A DNA stretch of 64,000 nucleotides from Armatimonadota bacterium (GTDB taxonomy: Bacteria; Armatimonadota; Fimbriimonadia; Fimbriimonadales; Fimbriimonadaceae), in assembly GCA_016125185.1 (NCBI GenBank), contig WGMG01000001.1, positions 372,001 through 436,000 of the forward strand, read 5' to 3'. Below the pieces are notes generated by a model. It saw only the letters and a list, made by a program, of their open reading frames with translations. It had not been told where the DNA came from and ran no database searches. This document shows positions 4,137 through 13,397 of this stretch, piece by piece (the stretch's first letter is position 1; every line of letters begins with the position of its first letter). A program made the position numbers and the translations under genes.

Positions 4137-5975
4137 TTACTTGGGCTTGAAGAGCGTCAGGAACTGGCCGACGGTTTCCTTCTCGCCCAGGGCAAATGTA
4201 AAGCTAATTTGCGTCGCCGGACGCTTTTCCTGGCTCCGGGCTGAAACAACCGCGTCGCCGTCCTTGATTTCGTCTTGGTAGTCCACATAATCCTTGTGCT
4301 CCGTCTCGGTGACCTTAAAGGTCATCTGCCGGAGGGTGGTGGGCTCCAGGCCGCGCGCGATCAGCGCCTTCGCCATCTCGTACGAGCAACTGCCGTTCTC
4401 GACGATGAGATTCAGGACCGTCGACTGCATGAGTTGAATCTGTACGGGGTCGAGCATGTCCGCCGAAAGCCCGCCTTTGTCGCGGGCGGCGTCCCGCTGC
4501 GACTTCGAGAGCGAAGCGTAAAACTTCAGCGAATCGTAGCCCGTGAGCACACGATCCACGCCCACGGTGTTGACCGGATAGCCGATGAACTCGTTGCCCA
4601 TTTGGTCCCTTCGCAACAGACCGGCGATCTTGACCGCCTCATCGAAAGTCATTGGAACCTTGGCGTCGTGATCCTCGATCCGCCGCCAAGCCGACTCGGA
4701 CGCTTCGTAAGCTCGATGCGACCAGAACCGGAAGTTGCGGGCCACCAGATATCCATTGTCAGCGCGGCAATAGGTGTCGGAGTCAGCCATCATCGCCTTC
4801 AGGTATTCGCCCGCGGTTTTGTAACCCCGCTCGAGGTTGATCCAATTCCAGAGGCAGCTTCGGTCCGCTTGGGCCACAACCGGAATGCCGGTGGCGAGGT
4901 GGAACCACCGCAAGTGGTCGCCTAACCGCCGACGATGGTTGGACCACGGCGAGGGCCAGGATTTCGTCTTGGTGTCGATCGACTGAGGAAAGCCTTTCTC
5001 GACCGCGTCCTGGTCCATCCAGGGCTCCAGGTCTTGGTAGAAAGGCATCTTCTTCAGGAAGTCCGCGATGGGCAGGTTGGAAGACGAGCCGCTGAACGGG
5101 CCGCTCATCTTGGCCGACGAAGCGCCCCCGCCGAACTCCTTGGGGTACGCGGCGTAGACGTTCATGCTGCACCGCAGCATGCCGGACGCGGGGTCGTAGC
5201 GGATGATATCGAAAAGGTCCTGTTCCACCCGGTGTTGTTGGCCGTCAGCCCCGATAAAGGAGGCGTTGATGAGGGTGGTGGAGTCGGACCGATACAGTTT
5301 GTATTGGGAACCGGGAAAGGTGCTCGCCGCCACTGGCTCGCCCTTCCAGAATCGGTCCATCGCTGACCGATCCATCTGAAGCAGGATTCGGCCGATGGCC
5401 GTCGTTTGTGGGTTGCCAGCCGCCGCCGACATCGCGGCGTAATCGTCGTAAGCCCGCTGGGTCGCTGCCGCGTCGGTTCCTTTCTGGGCATCTTCGTATG
5501 CCTTTTGGTAGGGGTTTAGAAGGCGATTTCGATCTTCGGCCGACATCATTCCCATGCCGAGGGGCACGGTCTCGTTCGACGTCGGCGTCGCCTTCGCGCA
5601 CTTTTGGTAGATGTTCAGAGCCGCCAAAATCATCTGCCGGTCCTCGTCCTCCTCAGCTTTGATGAAGTTGCGCTCGCGGTTGGTAGTCGGGATATCCATC
5701 TCCAGCCGGTAGCCAGCCTCCGACGGGGTCCATACGCAGTTGAGGGCCTTCGCCACTTTATCGAGCGTTTCTCGCAAAGGGCGGTTCTCGACGAAGACGT
5801 CGACCTTTAGGTCGGCGATGTGGGAATCAACTTTCAGCGTCACGCCCGACTGCTGTGTGGCCTGGGCGCAGAAGTCGGTGATTTGGGTCAGGCTGTCGTC
5901 AAAGTCGCTCTTGGCGGCCAGTCGGTTGTCGGTCAGAAGCGTGGTTTGAAGAAGGACAGTAAGCGCAAGAACCAT
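4137..5975 (-). CDS. Secreted protein of unknown family, tandem copy B
   Basis: A 612-residue paralogue of copy A. The N-terminal hydrophobic segment MVLALTVLLQTTLL is followed by the STN-like unit (LKVDVFVENRPL, ALNCVWT, YRLEMD) at about 30-96. The middle carries a Tyr/Ala-rich helical region. The conserved block with WPSPW, RRLGDHLRWFH and GIPVVAQADR lies near 340-378, and then a GYLVARNFRFWSHR segment. On the minus strand a TACTAT hexamer lies 13 nt before the start. It is separated by 101 nt from copy A. No catalytic motif is recognised; the repeated STN-like architecture suggests a binding or scaffold role (inference). Confidence 0.8.
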   Translation of the reverse strand: MVLALTVLLQTTLLTDNRLAAKSDFDDSLTQITDFCAQATQQSGVTLKVDSHIADLKVDVFVENRPLRETLDKVAKALNCVWTPSEAGYRLEMDIPTTNRERNFIKAEEDEDRQMILAALNIYQKCAKATPTSNETVPLGMGMMSAEDRNRLLNPYQKAYEDAQKGTDAAATQRAYDDYAAMSAAAGNPQTTAIGRILLQMDRSAMDRFWKGEPVAASTFPGSQYKLYRSDSTTLINASFIGADGQQHRVEQDLFDIIRYDPASGMLRCSMNVYAAYPKEFGGGASSAKMSGPFSGSSSNLPIADFLKKMPFYQDLEPWMDQDAVEKGFPQSIDTKTKSWPSPWSNHRRRLGDHLRWFHLATGIPVVAQADRSCLWNWINLERGYKTAGEYLKAMMADSDTYCRADNGYLVARNFRFWSHRAYEASESAWRRIEDHDAKVPMTFDEAVKIAGLLRRDQMGNEFIGYPVNTVGVDRVLTGYDSLKFYASLSKSQRDAARDKGGLSADMLDPVQIQLMQSTVLNLIVENGSCSYEMAKALIARGLEPTTLRQMTFKVTETEHKDYVDYQDEIKDGDAVVSARSQEKRPATQISFTFALGEKETVGQFLTLFKPK

Positions 5976-6003: not shown

Positions 6004-6510
6004 TCACGCGAAAAATCTTTCAGAAAATCCGTCGGTTCGGATACTTTCGTAATCGTGCCCGCAGTCGGCCGCCCAAGCGCACCAGAAAATCAGCGGCTCG
6101 TCGCCGGTGTTCACGGTCCGATGGGCAAGGGTTCCGTCGATGTGATACGTGACACCCGGCCGCAGTTTGACCGTGGTCGTCTTCCGCTCATGGTCCATCA
6201 GAACCACCAGCCCTTGGCCCGACACGACGAGGATCAGTTCGCCGTGAGTCGGCTTGGTGTGCCAGTGGCCACGAGTCATGAAGTACTCGCCGCCGACGGT
6301 GCCGGGGTGGAGCGTGGTCGAACCCCAAAGGATCGCCCCTTCGGTGCCGTCCGGCTTGGAAAAGTAGGTCTCCGTCTCGTACAGGGGCGTGGAAGCCATC
6401 GCCTGCGCCGCGTCTCTATCGCCCCAGTATTCGAGAAGGTCGCCGACGGTCCGCGCGGACCGAGAAACCTCTCCGGTCATTGTCCCGGAGAGGATATCGG
6501 TTGTGATCAT
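6004..6510 (-). CDS. pgi: Cupin-type glucose-6-phosphate isomerase
   Basis: Interconverts glucose 6-phosphate and fructose 6-phosphate in the cytoplasm. This is the metal-dependent cupin class first known from archaea, unrelated to the classical bacterial enzyme. The 168-residue length fits a single cupin barrel. Metal ligands can be read as His82 and His84 in GHWHTK, Glu91 in HGELIL and His130 in LAHRTVN. The gene lies between secreted-protein copies B and C on the same strand, 28 nt upstream of B and 42 nt downstream of C. It has its own -10-like TAGAGT 7 nt before the ATG. Nothing links it functionally to the secreted family. Confidence 0.8.
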   Translation of the reverse strand: MITTDILSGTMTGEVSRSARTVGDLLEYWGDRDAAQAMASTPLYETETYFSKPDGTEGAILWGSTTLHPGTVGGEYFMTRGHWHTKPTHGELILVVSGQGLVVLMDHERKTTTVKLRPGVTYHIDGTLAHRTVNTGDEPLIFWCAWAADCGHDYESIRTDGFSERFFA

Positions 6511-6552: not shown

Positions 6553-8328
6553 TCAGATCTGCTCGGACATGAAGGTCACGACCTTCTCGCCGTCGTATCC
6601 GAACTCGTAGTGAATCGTTCCGCAGACCTTTTCATTGCCGGGATCGACGACAATCTGCTCGCCGAGGTCCTGCACCGTCACCGGTTGGTTGATCACCTTC
6701 ATCTTCATGGTGCTCATGTGAAATCGCATCGCGTTCAATGACTGCGAATCGTAGCCGTCATAGATGAACGAATCCATGAGCGACTCGCTGACGAACCCTT
6801 GGTCCCCAATACCGTTGACGATTGCGGCTTCAAAAAGGCCCTGTTGCCGTTGGCTCAGTCGATTGAACGACAGTCCGCCTGGCCTGTTGGCCTGGCCAAG
6901 TTCACCATCATCCAGCGTAGCCACCAACTGAAGGGCGGGGAATGTCTGCGCGAATTCACGCCGAGAGAATTGCACGACCACTCCATCACGATCCTGCACC
7001 AGCATGGCTTGCAACGGATTCAATTTCGAGCTAAACGCGACGTATCGATCCATCTTCGACTCGTTGCCTCGCTGTGGGTTTTCGACGATGGCGTAAGTGG
7101 ATTCTGGGATTTCGTTCAGCTCTTTCCGCCAATAAATTCCATCGCGCACGAGCAGGAAGTCGCCGCTTCGGTGGGCATAACCCTTGCAGGCGGCAAGTAA
7201 CGAGGTGAGGTACTGCCCCTCCGTCGCCGAATGGCGATTCTGCCTGACGAAGGGATGCACGGTTCGGTCGGCCATCGCGACCACAGGTACGCCACTCATC
7301 CGGTGGAACCAGCGCAGGTGGTCGCCTAGTCGGTACCGCCCGTTGTCCCACGGCGAATCGAAGTTTGCCTTCTCGGCGCTTTTCTCGTCGATCTTGGTTG
7401 GGAACATGTCGTCGAGCGCGGAAAATTGATCCCACCGCTTCAGACTCGCGGCGAAGCTGAGCCCATCGAGCTCCTTCGGCATGTCGTCGAACGGATAGTG
7501 CCCAGGTGGCTCTCCAGAAATGATCCGCTGGTTCGGCGTGAATGTAAAGTCTTTCTTGCCGATGCGCTTGGTCGCTGGATCGACGCAGGTGAAGAGCACG
7601 TACTTACCGTCCACATTGGGCCGCGATGGGTCGAGGTCGCCCAGGGAGAACGCGAATTTGGCTTTGGTGACCGACGACACAATGAACGGCAGACCGGCCT
7701 TGTAGGCCCGAATGTCGCCCTCCGACATTTGCGAGAATAATCGGGCGAGCTCCAGGTTGGCGGTGCCCGATGCGATCTCTTCGAGCGCACGAACGCGGAT
7801 ATCGAGCGGTTCCAGCTCCGCGTCCGAGGCGTTGTCCGCCCGGGCTTTGGCCAGTTGGGCCTGAGCCTTTTTGAGGTCGCCTTTGTAGAGATTGAATCGG
7901 TCGGGATCGTTGATCCGCTCGTCGGAAGGCGGCACGATTCGCGCAATCTCCCGGTACACCGTAATCATGCGATCGAGGTTTTGGGTCGCGAGCTTGTCTT
8001 CGGCCGAAACGTACTGCCGCGCCTCAGCGTCGGCTTGGTCGTCGCCGACCAGCTGGTAGCCGTCGGCGCCGCGAACCCACTGAAGGTTGCACGCCTCGGC
8101 GACCTTCGCCAGGGTCTGGTTCAGGGGCTCGTCATCGACGAAGACGTCGATCTTGAGGTCCTTGATGGACGGGGAACAGGAAAACTGGATGCCCGATGCC
8201 TTTTCGGCGTTCTGAAGCAGACTCCGAATCGGCATCAGCGGTGCATCGATACTGGTCGGCTTGGTCAACCGAACATCGCTCGAAATGGAGTCCTGCGTCG
8301 CGAGGAGGATCAGCGAAAGGAGGCTCAT
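6553..8328 (-). CDS. Secreted protein of unknown family, tandem copy C
   Basis: A 591-residue, more divergent paralogue of copies A and B. The N-terminus (MSLLSLILLATQDS) is a short export signal. The STN-like unit lies at about 30-95 (LKIDVFVDDEPL, ACNLQWV, YQLVGDD). The middle block is kept in altered form: SPW, YRLGDHLRWFH and GVPVVAMADR near 325-362, followed by GDFLLVRDGIYWRKE. The change from IPVVAQADR to VPVVAMADR and loss of the WP before SPW separate it from A and B. A TATGAT box lies 9 nt before the ATG. It is first of the three in transcription order. Function unknown. Confidence 0.8.
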   Translation of the reverse strand: MSLLSLILLATQDSISSDVRLTKPTSIDAPLMPIRSLLQNAEKASGIQFSCSPSIKDLKIDVFVDDEPLNQTLAKVAEACNLQWVRGADGYQLVGDDQADAEARQYVSAEDKLATQNLDRMITVYREIARIVPPSDERINDPDRFNLYKGDLKKAQAQLAKARADNASDAELEPLDIRVRALEEIASGTANLELARLFSQMSEGDIRAYKAGLPFIVSSVTKAKFAFSLGDLDPSRPNVDGKYVLFTCVDPATKRIGKKDFTFTPNQRIISGEPPGHYPFDDMPKELDGLSFAASLKRWDQFSALDDMFPTKIDEKSAEKANFDSPWDNGRYRLGDHLRWFHRMSGVPVVAMADRTVHPFVRQNRHSATEGQYLTSLLAACKGYAHRSGDFLLVRDGIYWRKELNEIPESTYAIVENPQRGNESKMDRYVAFSSKLNPLQAMLVQDRDGVVVQFSRREFAQTFPALQLVATLDDGELGQANRPGGLSFNRLSQRQQGLFEAAIVNGIGDQGFVSESLMDSFIYDGYDSQSLNAMRFHMSTMKMKVINQPVTVQDLGEQIVVDPGNEKVCGTIHYEFGYDGEKVVTFMSEQI

Positions 8329-10045: not shown

Positions 10046-10073
10046 TTGATTTACAGATATATCACGTTAAAAT
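10046..10073 (+). promoter_or_regulatory. Promoter of ABC sugar importer operon
   Basis: TTGATT (10046-10051), a 16-nt spacer and TAAAAT (10068-10073). Transcription should start near 10080, downstream of the ATG at 10072. That supports the ATG at 10093 as the true start. Confidence 0.5.
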
Positions 10074-10092: not shown

Positions 10093-12507
10093 ATGAAGAA
10101 GCTTTTCTCCCGCATCGCCCTGGGCGTGGTTGCCCTGCTTTTGGCGTCCCTTTCGTCAGCGGATGTTACTTTGAGGCTGAGCGTCTGGGACGGCGACAAG
10201 GCTCTGGAAACGATTCGCGGCATCTGCCAGCAGTTCGAGAAGGACAATCCCGGCATCCACGTCAAGCTGGAGAACTACGACTACACGCTTTACCATCAGA
10301 AGATGATCATCACTTACGCGGCGGGCGTGGCTCCCGACGTCGTGATGATGGACGGAAGCCACTACCAGTTCTTGGCTACCCGCCACGCGCTTTTGCCCCT
10401 CAACCAGTTCTTCGCCTCGTCGCCCGGGTTCGACATCAAGGATTACTACAAGCCGATCGTCGATTCCTACACGTTCCACGATCAGCTTTATATCCTGCCG
10501 CGCGACATCGCCCCCATCGGGCTGATGTACTACAACAAGAAGATGTTCAAGGACGCGGGGATTCCGTACCCCGATGGTTCATGGACGTGGGACTTCCACA
10601 TTCGGCCCGAACTGAAGGAGAAGGACTTTCTGTGGGTCTGCCAGCAGTTCGTGAAGAAGGATGATCGGGGCAAATACATCCAGTGGGGCTACGCGCCCAG
10701 CTGGCCGCAGATGCAGGCCGACACCTACGCTCTGCAACTCGGCGCGTATCCTTACGACAACATGGCCGAGCCGACCAAGGTGCTGGCCGACGCTCCCGAC
10801 CGCGTGAAGGCGTTCCAGTTTGCCGCCGATTTTGCCAACGTTCTGCACCTCGAACCGTCGAACCTAGAAGCCAGCGGCTCGCTGATGCTGACGACCCAAC
10901 AGATGTTCGTCCAGCAGAAGATCGCGATGTATCAAAACGGCATCTGGGACGTGCCGAACATGCGCAAGATGCTGAAGCCCGGCACGCCGGAATGGTTCGA
11001 TTGGGACATCTGCCTGGCTCCCGCCTATGCGGGCAAGGACGGGAAGCCGGTCCGCCGCTCGACGACGGGCGGCTCGGGCTACGCCATCATGGCTTCGACC
11101 AAGAACCCGAGCTTGGCTTGGAAACTGACGCGCTACCTGGCTGGGCCAGTGGGCATGACGGCGATGGCCAAGGCGGGCATTGCGCAGCCCGCGATTCGGC
11201 AGTTGGCGCTCACGAAAGGCGTGTGGCTGCCGGGGCCGGATACGCCGCTGGAAGAGCAGTATCCGCGCAATCGAATCGTCACCGACGAAGCCGTCAACTA
11301 CGTCGTGTTCGATGCCACGACCCAGTTCGGCATCTCGGTCAGCGACCGATATAACAAGGGCCTTGAGATTCTGTGGAACGGCCAAACGACGGCGCAAAAA
11401 ATCCTCTCCGAGAACGAGAAGATCGCCCAGCAACGGCTAGACGACCTGCGCAAACAGGAAGCCCTGCCGCCGTTCAATTGGGTGTTGGGCGGGGCTATCG
11501 CCGCCCTGATCGTGCTGAGCATGGTCGCCTTCGTGTACCTGCCCGAAAGGGGCCGACGGCTCACTCGGCTGGAGAAAGGCGAATCCAAGTCCGGCTACAA
11601 ATTCCTCACTCCCTGGATCGTCGGCGCGGTCATCTTCACCCTTGGCCCGATGATTTTGGCCCTGCTGATGTCGTTCGCCGAGTGGGACATCATCGCCCCC
11701 GCCAAGTGGCGCGGCCTCGCCAACTTCCAAGAGATTTTCCAAAGCGATCCATCCTTCTACAAGTCGATGATCATCACGGCGATCTACACGGTCTTCAGCG
11801 TGACCTTCGGCATCATCGGCGCGCTCGGCCTGGCCTTGTTGCTGAACCAGAAGGTGCGCGGCGTGGCGCTGTATCGCACGCTCTACTACATTCCGTCGAT
11901 CACCTCCGGCGTGGCCGGATCGCTGATCTGGATGCGGGTTTTCAACCCCGACAACGGCCTGCTGAACTTCTTGCTGTACGGCCCCCATGGCGATTGGCCG
12001 GTGGGCGTATGGCTCAGCAACTGGATCATGCACGACCCGCATAAGCCGGTCGATTGGCTTCAGACCGAGACGACCGCGATGCCCGCCCTCATCATCATGT
12101 CGGTGTGGGGCATCGGCGGCGGAATGGTCATCTTCCTCGCCGGTCTGCAGGGCATTCCGCAGCACTACTACGAAGCGGCGACCCTCGACGGAGCCGGGAT
12201 CATCGCCCGGTTCAAGTCCGTCACCCTACCGATGCTGACGCCGACGATCTTCTTCAGCGCCATCACAGGCTTGATCGGCGCCTTCCAGGCGTTCACCCAG
12301 GCGTTCGTGATTTCCAACGGCACCGGAGCCCCGAACGACGCCACCCGCTTCTTCGTTCTGCACATCTTCAGCGCCGCCTTCCAGTCCGCGCGCATGGGGT
12401 ACGCCAGCGCCCTCGGGTGGGTGCTGTTCATCATCATCATGGTCATCACGCTCATCCAAATGAAGCTCAGTAGGCGCTGGGTCTACTACGAATCGGAGGC
12501 GAAATAA
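10093..12507 (+). CDS. ABC sugar transporter: binding protein fused to MalF-type permease
   Basis: An 804-residue fusion. A signal peptide (MKKLFSRIALGVVALLLASLSSA) leads into a family-1 extracellular solute-binding domain to about residue 440, with PDVVMMDG and the STTGGSGYAI hinge region. A helical linker and one extra membrane segment (~455-480) follow. The rest is a MalF-like permease with several helices and the EAA loop YYEAATLDGAG, which docks the ATPase. These two parts are normally separate proteins. The stop overlaps the start of the next permease. The start was chosen from the promoter position and the signal peptide. Substrate is probably a carbohydrate; no ATPase gene is adjacent. 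Confidence 0.9.
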   Translation: MKKLFSRIALGVVALLLASLSSADVTLRLSVWDGDKALETIRGICQQFEKDNPGIHVKLENYDYTLYHQKMIITYAAGVAPDVVMMDGSHYQFLATRHALLPLNQFFASSPGFDIKDYYKPIVDSYTFHDQLYILPRDIAPIGLMYYNKKMFKDAGIPYPDGSWTWDFHIRPELKEKDFLWVCQQFVKKDDRGKYIQWGYAPSWPQMQADTYALQLGAYPYDNMAEPTKVLADAPDRVKAFQFAADFANVLHLEPSNLEASGSLMLTTQQMFVQQKIAMYQNGIWDVPNMRKMLKPGTPEWFDWDICLAPAYAGKDGKPVRRSTTGGSGYAIMASTKNPSLAWKLTRYLAGPVGMTAMAKAGIAQPAIRQLALTKGVWLPGPDTPLEEQYPRNRIVTDEAVNYVVFDATTQFGISVSDRYNKGLEILWNGQTTAQKILSENEKIAQQRLDDLRKQEALPPFNWVLGGAIAALIVLSMVAFVYLPERGRRLTRLEKGESKSGYKFLTPWIVGAVIFTLGPMILALLMSFAEWDIIAPAKWRGLANFQEIFQSDPSFYKSMIITAIYTVFSVTFGIIGALGLALLLNQKVRGVALYRTLYYIPSITSGVAGSLIWMRVFNPDNGLLNFLLYGPHGDWPVGVWLSNWIMHDPHKPVDWLQTETTAMPALIIMSVWGIGGGMVIFLAGLQGIPQHYYEAATLDGAGIIARFKSVTLPMLTPTIFFSAITGLIGAFQAFTQAFVISNGTGAPNDATRFFVLHIFSAAFQSARMGYASALGWVLFIIIMVITLIQMKLSRRWVYYESEAK

Positions 12508-13397
12508 TGGCCACCAAGGTTCAAACCTCGTCGCAAGAATGGCACGCCATGGCCAAGCGGGCCGAGAACACGGCTCGGATTCTGCGCTGGCTGTTGTGGG
12601 TGGTGCTCCTCACCGGCATCGTGCTGTCGCTCGCGCCGTTCTACCTGATGATCGCGATGTCGCTGAAGACGCCGGGCGAGATCGCCAGCAGTTCGGTGTG
12701 GTCGTTGCCGCGAGTCCTGCAGTGGGGCAACTACGAAAAGGTCCTCACCAACGCCAACGCGCCGTTCTTCGACTTCCTGCGCAACTCCCTCATCATCTCG
12801 GGGGTCTCGACCATCGGCGTTTTGCTCAGCTCGAGCATGGTGGCGTACGGCTTTGCGCGCCTGAAGTTTCCCGGCCGCGATCGACTCTTCATCCTGCTCC
12901 TCAGCACCATGATGTTGCCCAGCATCGTCACCATGGTCCCGCAGTACGTGCTGTGGAAGTACCTCGGCTGGGTGGATACGTTCTATCCGCTGATCGTGCC
13001 CGCGTTCTTCGGCGGCGGAGCGTATAACGTGTTCCTCCTGCGCCAGTTCCTGATGGGCATTCCGCGCGACATCGACGAAGCCGCCCTGCTGGACGGCGCC
13101 AGCCATTCGCAGATCTTCTGGCAGTTCATGATGCCGAACATGGGCCCCGCGCTGGCGACGGTGGGCATCTTCAACTTCATCTATAACTGGCGCGACTTCC
13201 AGGGCCCGCTGATCATCCTCAATAGCCCCGAACACCAGACACTGGAGCTGGGTTTGCAGACGTACCGCGCGATGAACCAGAACCAGTGGGAACTGCTGAT
13301 GGCCGGCTCGGTGATCGTCATGATCCCGATCATCATCCTGTTCCTGGCGGGGCAGCGGTACTTTGTGAAAGGCATCGTGATGACGGGGATCAAGTAG
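12507..13397 (+). CDS. ABC sugar transporter permease, MalG type
   Basis: Inner-membrane permease of 296 residues, partner of the fused binding protein/permease. Six hydrophobic helices can be traced, starting with LRWLLWVVLLTGIVLSLAPF. The cytoplasmic EAA loop reads IDEAALLDGASHSQIFW, in the usual place about 100 residues before the end. Its ATG shares one base with the preceding stop (TAATG), so translation is coupled. The importer needs an ATPase, presumably encoded elsewhere and shared in the manner of MsmX or UgpC (inference). Confidence 0.92.
   Translation: MATKVQTSSQEWHAMAKRAENTARILRWLLWVVLLTGIVLSLAPFYLMIAMSLKTPGEIASSSVWSLPRVLQWGNYEKVLTNANAPFFDFLRNSLIISGVSTIGVLLSSSMVAYGFARLKFPGRDRLFILLLSTMMLPSIVTMVPQYVLWKYLGWVDTFYPLIVPAFFGGGAYNVFLLRQFLMGIPRDIDEAALLDGASHSQIFWQFMMPNMGPALATVGIFNFIYNWRDFQGPLIILNSPEHQTLELGLQTYRAMNQNQWELLMAGSVIVMIPIIILFLAGQRYFVKGIVMTGIK

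Follow-up and report, generated by a model that had tools for sequence, protein, structure and literature searches.

Sugar importers normally depend on a receptor that is either freely diffusing or lipid-anchored and that is kept in large excess over the transporter. The natural fusion of MalE and MalF studied by Licht and coworkers is reportedly from Bdellovibrio. This natural MalE-MalF fusion has been characterized (Licht et al. 2019, Res Microbiol 170:1-12, as cited in PMC7756565 and PMC9045158), and transport competence has been reported for supercomplexes that contain a MalE-MalF fusion (PMC7756565); the excess of receptor over transporter is given as 30-50-fold for the maltose system of E. 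coli and the histidine system of Salmonella (values as cited in PMC9045158). OpuA and GlnPQ, whose substrates are glycine betaine and amino acids, likewise have the binding domain tethered to the permease, a short linker being combined with a membrane anchor. In OpuA these are an 11-residue linker and a hydrophobic anchor (PMC11065425); its two identical permease subunits lead to two binding domains per transporter, and GlnPQ carries two tandem binding domains on each permease chain. Lastly, shared "multitask" ATPases are established for sugar importers in the case of MsmX of Bacillus subtilis and its homologues (PMC7658222).

Here we describe a fused chain encoded in a 64-kb stretch of DNA of an Armatimonadota bacterium (the window, that is, the whole stretch analyzed). 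As in the maltose/maltodextrin transporter with the MalE-MalF fusion, a single sugar-binding domain precedes the MalF part of the chain, and this sugar-importer fusion (Licht et al. 2019; PDB 6ffl) is a closer precedent than the amino-acid importers to which the first-pass annotation had likened the chain. The structure 6ffl, the MalE domain of Bdellovibrio bacteriovorus, is among the fold matches of our binding domain and shares its binding-fold superfamily (Z 37.9, rmsd 3.1, 377 residues); however, the two belong to different binding-protein subgroups, with 18% identity between the binding domain and 6ffl, and the fusions described here form several subfamilies over a whole phylum. With OpuA and GlnPQ the chain has in common the short linker and the membrane anchor, whereas its families are SBP_bac_1 and the UgpA/MalF type, and a MalF/MalG-type pair would carry one binding domain only. 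Unlike it, CUT1 importers encoded by separate genes possess a separate binding protein and a MalF without the anchor helix. On the whole, we consider it very probable that the product of the locus is a functional type I sugar ABC importer of the CUT1 group, with an added membrane helix connecting the binding protein to the MalF-type permease and with MalG and the sole UgpC/MalK-type ATPase of the genome as partners. The features of the locus are the following:

10093..10161, + strand: predicted Sec signal peptide, aa 1-23, MKKLFSRIALGVVALLLASLSSA/D, no lipobox (hydropathy; cleavage site read by eye, AlphaFold2 confidence lower over residues 1-20)
10162..11460, + strand: sugar-binding domain of SBP_bac_1 fold, aa 24-456, including the C-terminal helices 411-428 and 434-456 (Pfam, phmmer, VIA-align)
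11461..11478, + strand: short linker from the binding domain to the anchor helix, aa 457-462 (AlphaFold2 secondary structure, extent of the SBP alignments)
11479..11550, + strand: extra membrane-spanning anchor helix, aa 463-486 (hydropathy, AlphaFold2 helix)
11566..12504, + strand: MalF/UgpA-type permease domain, aa 492-804 (Pfam, NCBIfam, AlphaFold2 model)
12172..12231, + strand: EAA (coupling-helix) loop of the fused permease, EAATLDGAGIIARFKSVTLP, aa 694-713 (motif scan)
12507-13397, + strand: MalG/UgpE-type permease of 296 aa, with BPD_transp_1 and an EAA loop

The frame 10093-12507 (+) is open across 804 codons, an opening expected by chance with a probability of ~3e-13 at the local base composition, and it comprises a signal peptide, a sugar-binding domain, an extra membrane helix and a MalF-type permease; the codon-position GC is coding-like to the left of the junction, to its right and through it. 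The hydrophobic stretch of the signal peptide covers aa 8-26. An alternative in-frame ATG lies upstream at 10072 and would add seven residues ahead of the signal peptide; the start at 10093 fits the latter better. The family-1 extracellular sugar-binding domain is matched above cut-off by both PF01547 (SBP_bac_1, aa 40-354, E 1e-28) and PF13416, and BPD_transp_1 (PF00528) passes its cut-off at aa 575-795; the NCBIfam models UgpA (aa 502-799), GlcT and MalF also match the permease part, all of them below their own cut-offs. Thus, Pfam, hydropathy, motif scan and structural model agree with the initial reading of a binding domain, an extra helix and a complete permease with its EAA loop in one frame. 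That a single extra membrane helix precedes the permease is borne out by the hydropathy profile (aa 463-481, peak 2.45), and the five Lys/Arg residues that come right after it fit a crossing from outside to inside.

The AlphaFold2 model of the fusion (pLDDT 84.9, pTM 0.81) was built from an input alignment of 50 sequences, 3 of which were fusions, and shows helices at 411-428, 434-456 and 463-486 and, after them, the permease bundle; the placement of the domains in it is no independent evidence for docking. The binding domain, to which the VIA-align comparison was confined (the permease being assessed from sequence and predicted helices), superimposes on solved sugar-binding proteins with Z of 35-41. 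The alignment with 5f7v (Z 41.3, rmsd 2.4, 385 residues) covers model residues 23-453, and that with AbnE (6rjy), an arabino-oligosaccharide protein and the best PDB sequence match of the domain in phmmer, spans residues 24-460. Since the alignments with solved proteins reach residues 450-460, the "helical linker" of the first-pass annotation consists for the most part of the C-terminal portion of the binding fold itself: the helices are present, but the true connector in the model is of about six residues (about aa 457-462). The 11-residue linker of OpuA is reported to give an effective concentration of ~4 mM (PMC11065425), and applying the same formula to a linker of ~6 residues we estimate that the receptor would be at several mM at the docking site.

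A long frame of this kind might be an artefact of annotation or sequencing, in which a missed stop codon or an assembly error joined two genes. Elsewhere than in this phylum the parts are nearly always two adjacent genes and sometimes, as in Sinorhizobium, share a frame in which one stop alone divides them. However, the unbroken frame recurs in independent genomes, including the closed, single-contig genome G007, the junction carries an extra helix that is absent from separate genes, and conservation at the codon level runs through the junction. Indeed, members of the same genus harbor full-length, stop-free copies at 80, 66, 66 and 65% identity, and the closest copy shows a junction without indels, with the coding frame kept and differences mostly at third codon positions. 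Further single-frame copies occur in the order and in the phylum down to ~30% identity, and a phylum-wide sample gave matches in 267 out of 291 genomes, many of them full-length, with frames of ~770-990 aa without stops. The fusion is therefore a single frame, with no lost stop codon. The error scenario retains a negligible probability, and to judge from the genome comparison it can be regarded as already refuted.

The possibility that relatives keep two separate genes, raised initially as a refutation of the fusion, was not borne out either, as relatives maintain the single frame and the apparent splits proved to be breaks away from the junction or contig ends. Three candidate split orthologues were rejected: that of G020 reflects a contig break, that of G145 (L111:2064-4507 (+)) a frameshift within the binding domain, and that of G217 (L135:2716-5211 (-)) an in-frame TAG, also within the binding domain. 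The last two interrupted fusions may be either pseudogenes or sequencing errors.

The MalG-type start overlaps the fusion stop by 1 base (TAATG), with GGAGG upstream, and its EAA loop corresponds to aa 191-210 (13077-13136, motif scan); the two permeases are different from each other, each with BPD_transp_1 and an EAA motif. In most relatives, too, a MalG-type gene comes after the fusion. The divergent upstream neighbor in the window encodes a dihydrolipoyl dehydrogenase, at whose position a related flavoprotein is found in the relative L113, and the direct neighbors of the window fusion are not sugar enzymes. In relatives the fusion sometimes lies beside GH94, PF10091, GH2, GH42 or rhamnosidase-domain genes, and otherwise beside unrelated ones; these carbohydrate-enzyme neighbors are suggestive of a sugar substrate. 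The substrate class would be that of oligosaccharides, and no narrower. With respect to maltodextrins in particular, the best sequence relative is the arabino-oligosaccharide binder AbnE, and the fold matches do not separate ligands. Elsewhere in the window, two proteins of ~600 aa (4137-5975 (-) and 6553-8328 (-)), alike by eye and with a secretin/STN-like-looking N-terminus, matched no family in an NCBIfam search; a small cupin-like gene (6004-6510) sits between them.

According to the model that we propose, the signal peptide would insert the chain, the binding domain would fold in the periplasm, and the anchor helix would return the chain inside, so that the permease would enter the membrane in its normal orientation. 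The partners of the fusion would be the MalG-type product of the overlapping downstream gene and two copies of the UgpC/MalK-type ATPase. Having captured an oligosaccharide, the tethered domain would dock on its own permease pair. High-affinity oligosaccharide import with one tethered receptor per transporter is the most likely function, and a fixed 1:1 ratio with no diffusion of the receptor may reasonably be inferred from the single chain.

The conservation pattern bears on two different roles that the fused domain might play. Identity over the anchor and junction is 46-62%, against 60-83% for the two domains, which makes the tether look more like a spacer than a specific interface. The poor conservation of the linker region, the least conserved part, would also suit a chain that is made in one piece and then cut in the periplasm to release a soluble binding protein, the fusion merely setting the ratio; this is quite unlikely, since an anchor helix would be needless once severed from the receptor and yet is present in nearly all fusions, and the short modelled linker leaves little room for a protease site. 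As for the two domains, their identities are close to each other (binding domain vs. permease, 83% vs. 82% in the closest copy and 64-67% vs. 60-70% in three others). Such comparable conservation argues against the idea that the fused domain is a fixed sensor or accessory not involved in import, with free binding proteins supplying the permease. The genome does encode ten SBP_bac_1 proteins (408-505 aa) besides its three fusions, but those ordinary binding proteins whose surroundings were read adjoin permeases of their own, and the fused permease retains its EAA loop and its MalG partner; we regard a sensor or accessory role as highly improbable. An importer with a tethered receptor remains the preferred reading.

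The statement that no ATPase is present held for the window, as no ABC ATPase above the family cut-off was found within its 64 kb, but not for the genome, which encodes a single ATPase with a MalK OB domain (OB_MalK), C6:33114, unlinked to the fusion; its protein passes the NCBIfam cut-off for UgpC. The genomes of the same family that were tested likewise contain one OB_MalK ATPase each, with the exception of G017, which has two. The putative pairing of fusion and ATPase follows from the presence of one candidate in the genome. On the simplest reading, the importer most likely shares the single UgpC/MalK-type ATPase of the genome, which would be similar to AraNPQ-MsmX, where an ATPase of MsmX type is common to several importers (PMC7658222).

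As for the distribution of the fusion, 73 fused frames were fetched, which represent at least 22 family codes of Armatimonadota and, in addition, two MAGs, L029 (Armatimonadetes) and L043 (Myxococcota). Hydropathy analysis gave exactly one hydrophobic helix at the junction in 71 of the 73, whereas 99 out of 104 separate SBPs lack such a helix behind their binding domain; separate MalF proteins had six predicted helices (86/97). Among the SBP_bac_1 matches listed for 15 relatives, the frames fell into two classes (408-616 aa and 779-989 aa, none between), the long one accounting for about one third of the matches listed. In the genome of the window, 3 out of 13 SBP_bac_1 proteins are fused. Judging from these frames, the fusions make up a large new group, across most of Armatimonadota, of a design that is rare but had been known before; members of the phylum appear to operate sugar importers of the fused and of the ordinary kind in parallel within the same genomes.

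Some variants deserve to be mentioned. The second fusion of this genome has a MalG partner (L002:4579-6327 (-), C1 about 722.6-724.3 kb) of 583 aa, in which about six helices are predicted and a large insert precedes the permease core. A Pfam search of this protein gave BPD_transp_1 alone; long frames (442-754 aa) occupy the MalG position in the relatives L137, L138, L140, L143-L145 and L163-L168. The third, divergent fusion (L001:2422-4827 (+), C1 about 130.4-132.8 kb) adjoins a recA-like gene and is followed by a sulfatase-like gene, with no MalG-type gene beside it. In the fusions L132, L146, L147, L148, L158 and L159 the signal peptide is followed by a lipobox-like cysteine in spite of the membrane anchor; they may be additionally lipid-anchored, or the motif may be a relic.

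Beyond Armatimonadota, the spread was assessed from one scan of a genome collection (six window-protein peptides, biased to close relatives; 80 loci returned) and from a plasmid set. In nearly all non-Armatimonadota loci having both parts, separate and mostly adjacent genes encode the binding protein and MalF, in agreement with the initial claim that the two are normally distinct proteins. The usual order is binding protein, MalF, MalG, as in the homologues of Paenibacillus, Caldilineaceae and Sinorhizobium. Plasmid matches of Sinorhizobium/Ensifer and Enterococcus, which in tblastn extended across the junction in one piece, were rejected as fusions, as stops at the junction make them separate genes; a 788-aa frame of Salipiger (L082) was discarded since it contains no binding domain. 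The single stop within a common frame in Sinorhizobium implies that fusion is a small step. This leaves a single fused frame of a different lineage, L043:3-2072 (+), at a contig edge in the MAG named Deltaproteobacteria (Myxococcota); it falls outside the Armatimonadota fusion clades in the tree and may represent either a binning error or a separate fusion.

The analysis of the phylogenetic tree constructed using the permease domain revealed well-supported fusion clades (99/95 for that of the window, 99/92 for that of the second fusion of the genome and 100/99 for a third clade), with separate permeases branching between them. Constraining the fusions of the phylum to one clade gave an AU p of 0.045, and the bootstrap trees need 4-5 changes of state. 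A single clade of fusions thus seems to lie at the edge of rejection, and these trees would be compatible with a single origin followed by losses as well as with a few origins. The layout of the junction is similar in the alignment across fusion clades. One might speculate that tethering arose more than once in Armatimonadota and was kept as a diderm strategy, with one ATPase shared by fused and free receptors and with tethering itself, rather than a particular sugar, under selection; we hold this to be rather doubtful. For Fimbriimonas ginsengisoli, LPS genes have been reported and a diderm envelope argued (PMC4072686).

The fusion is a member of an established design, and what is new is its scale across Armatimonadota beside importers with free receptors. 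Our literature search, with most subscription papers beyond reach, found no account of these fusions in Armatimonadota. In the genome paper on Fimbriimonas ginsengisoli the numbers given are 28 for binding proteins and 17 for sugar systems, and words starting with "fus" are absent from its text (PMC4072686); annotation counts in these genomes may be affected by the fusions. The coexistence in one phylum of the two layouts, with a single candidate ATPase, would provide natural matched pairs bearing on the value of receptor diffusion and receptor excess.
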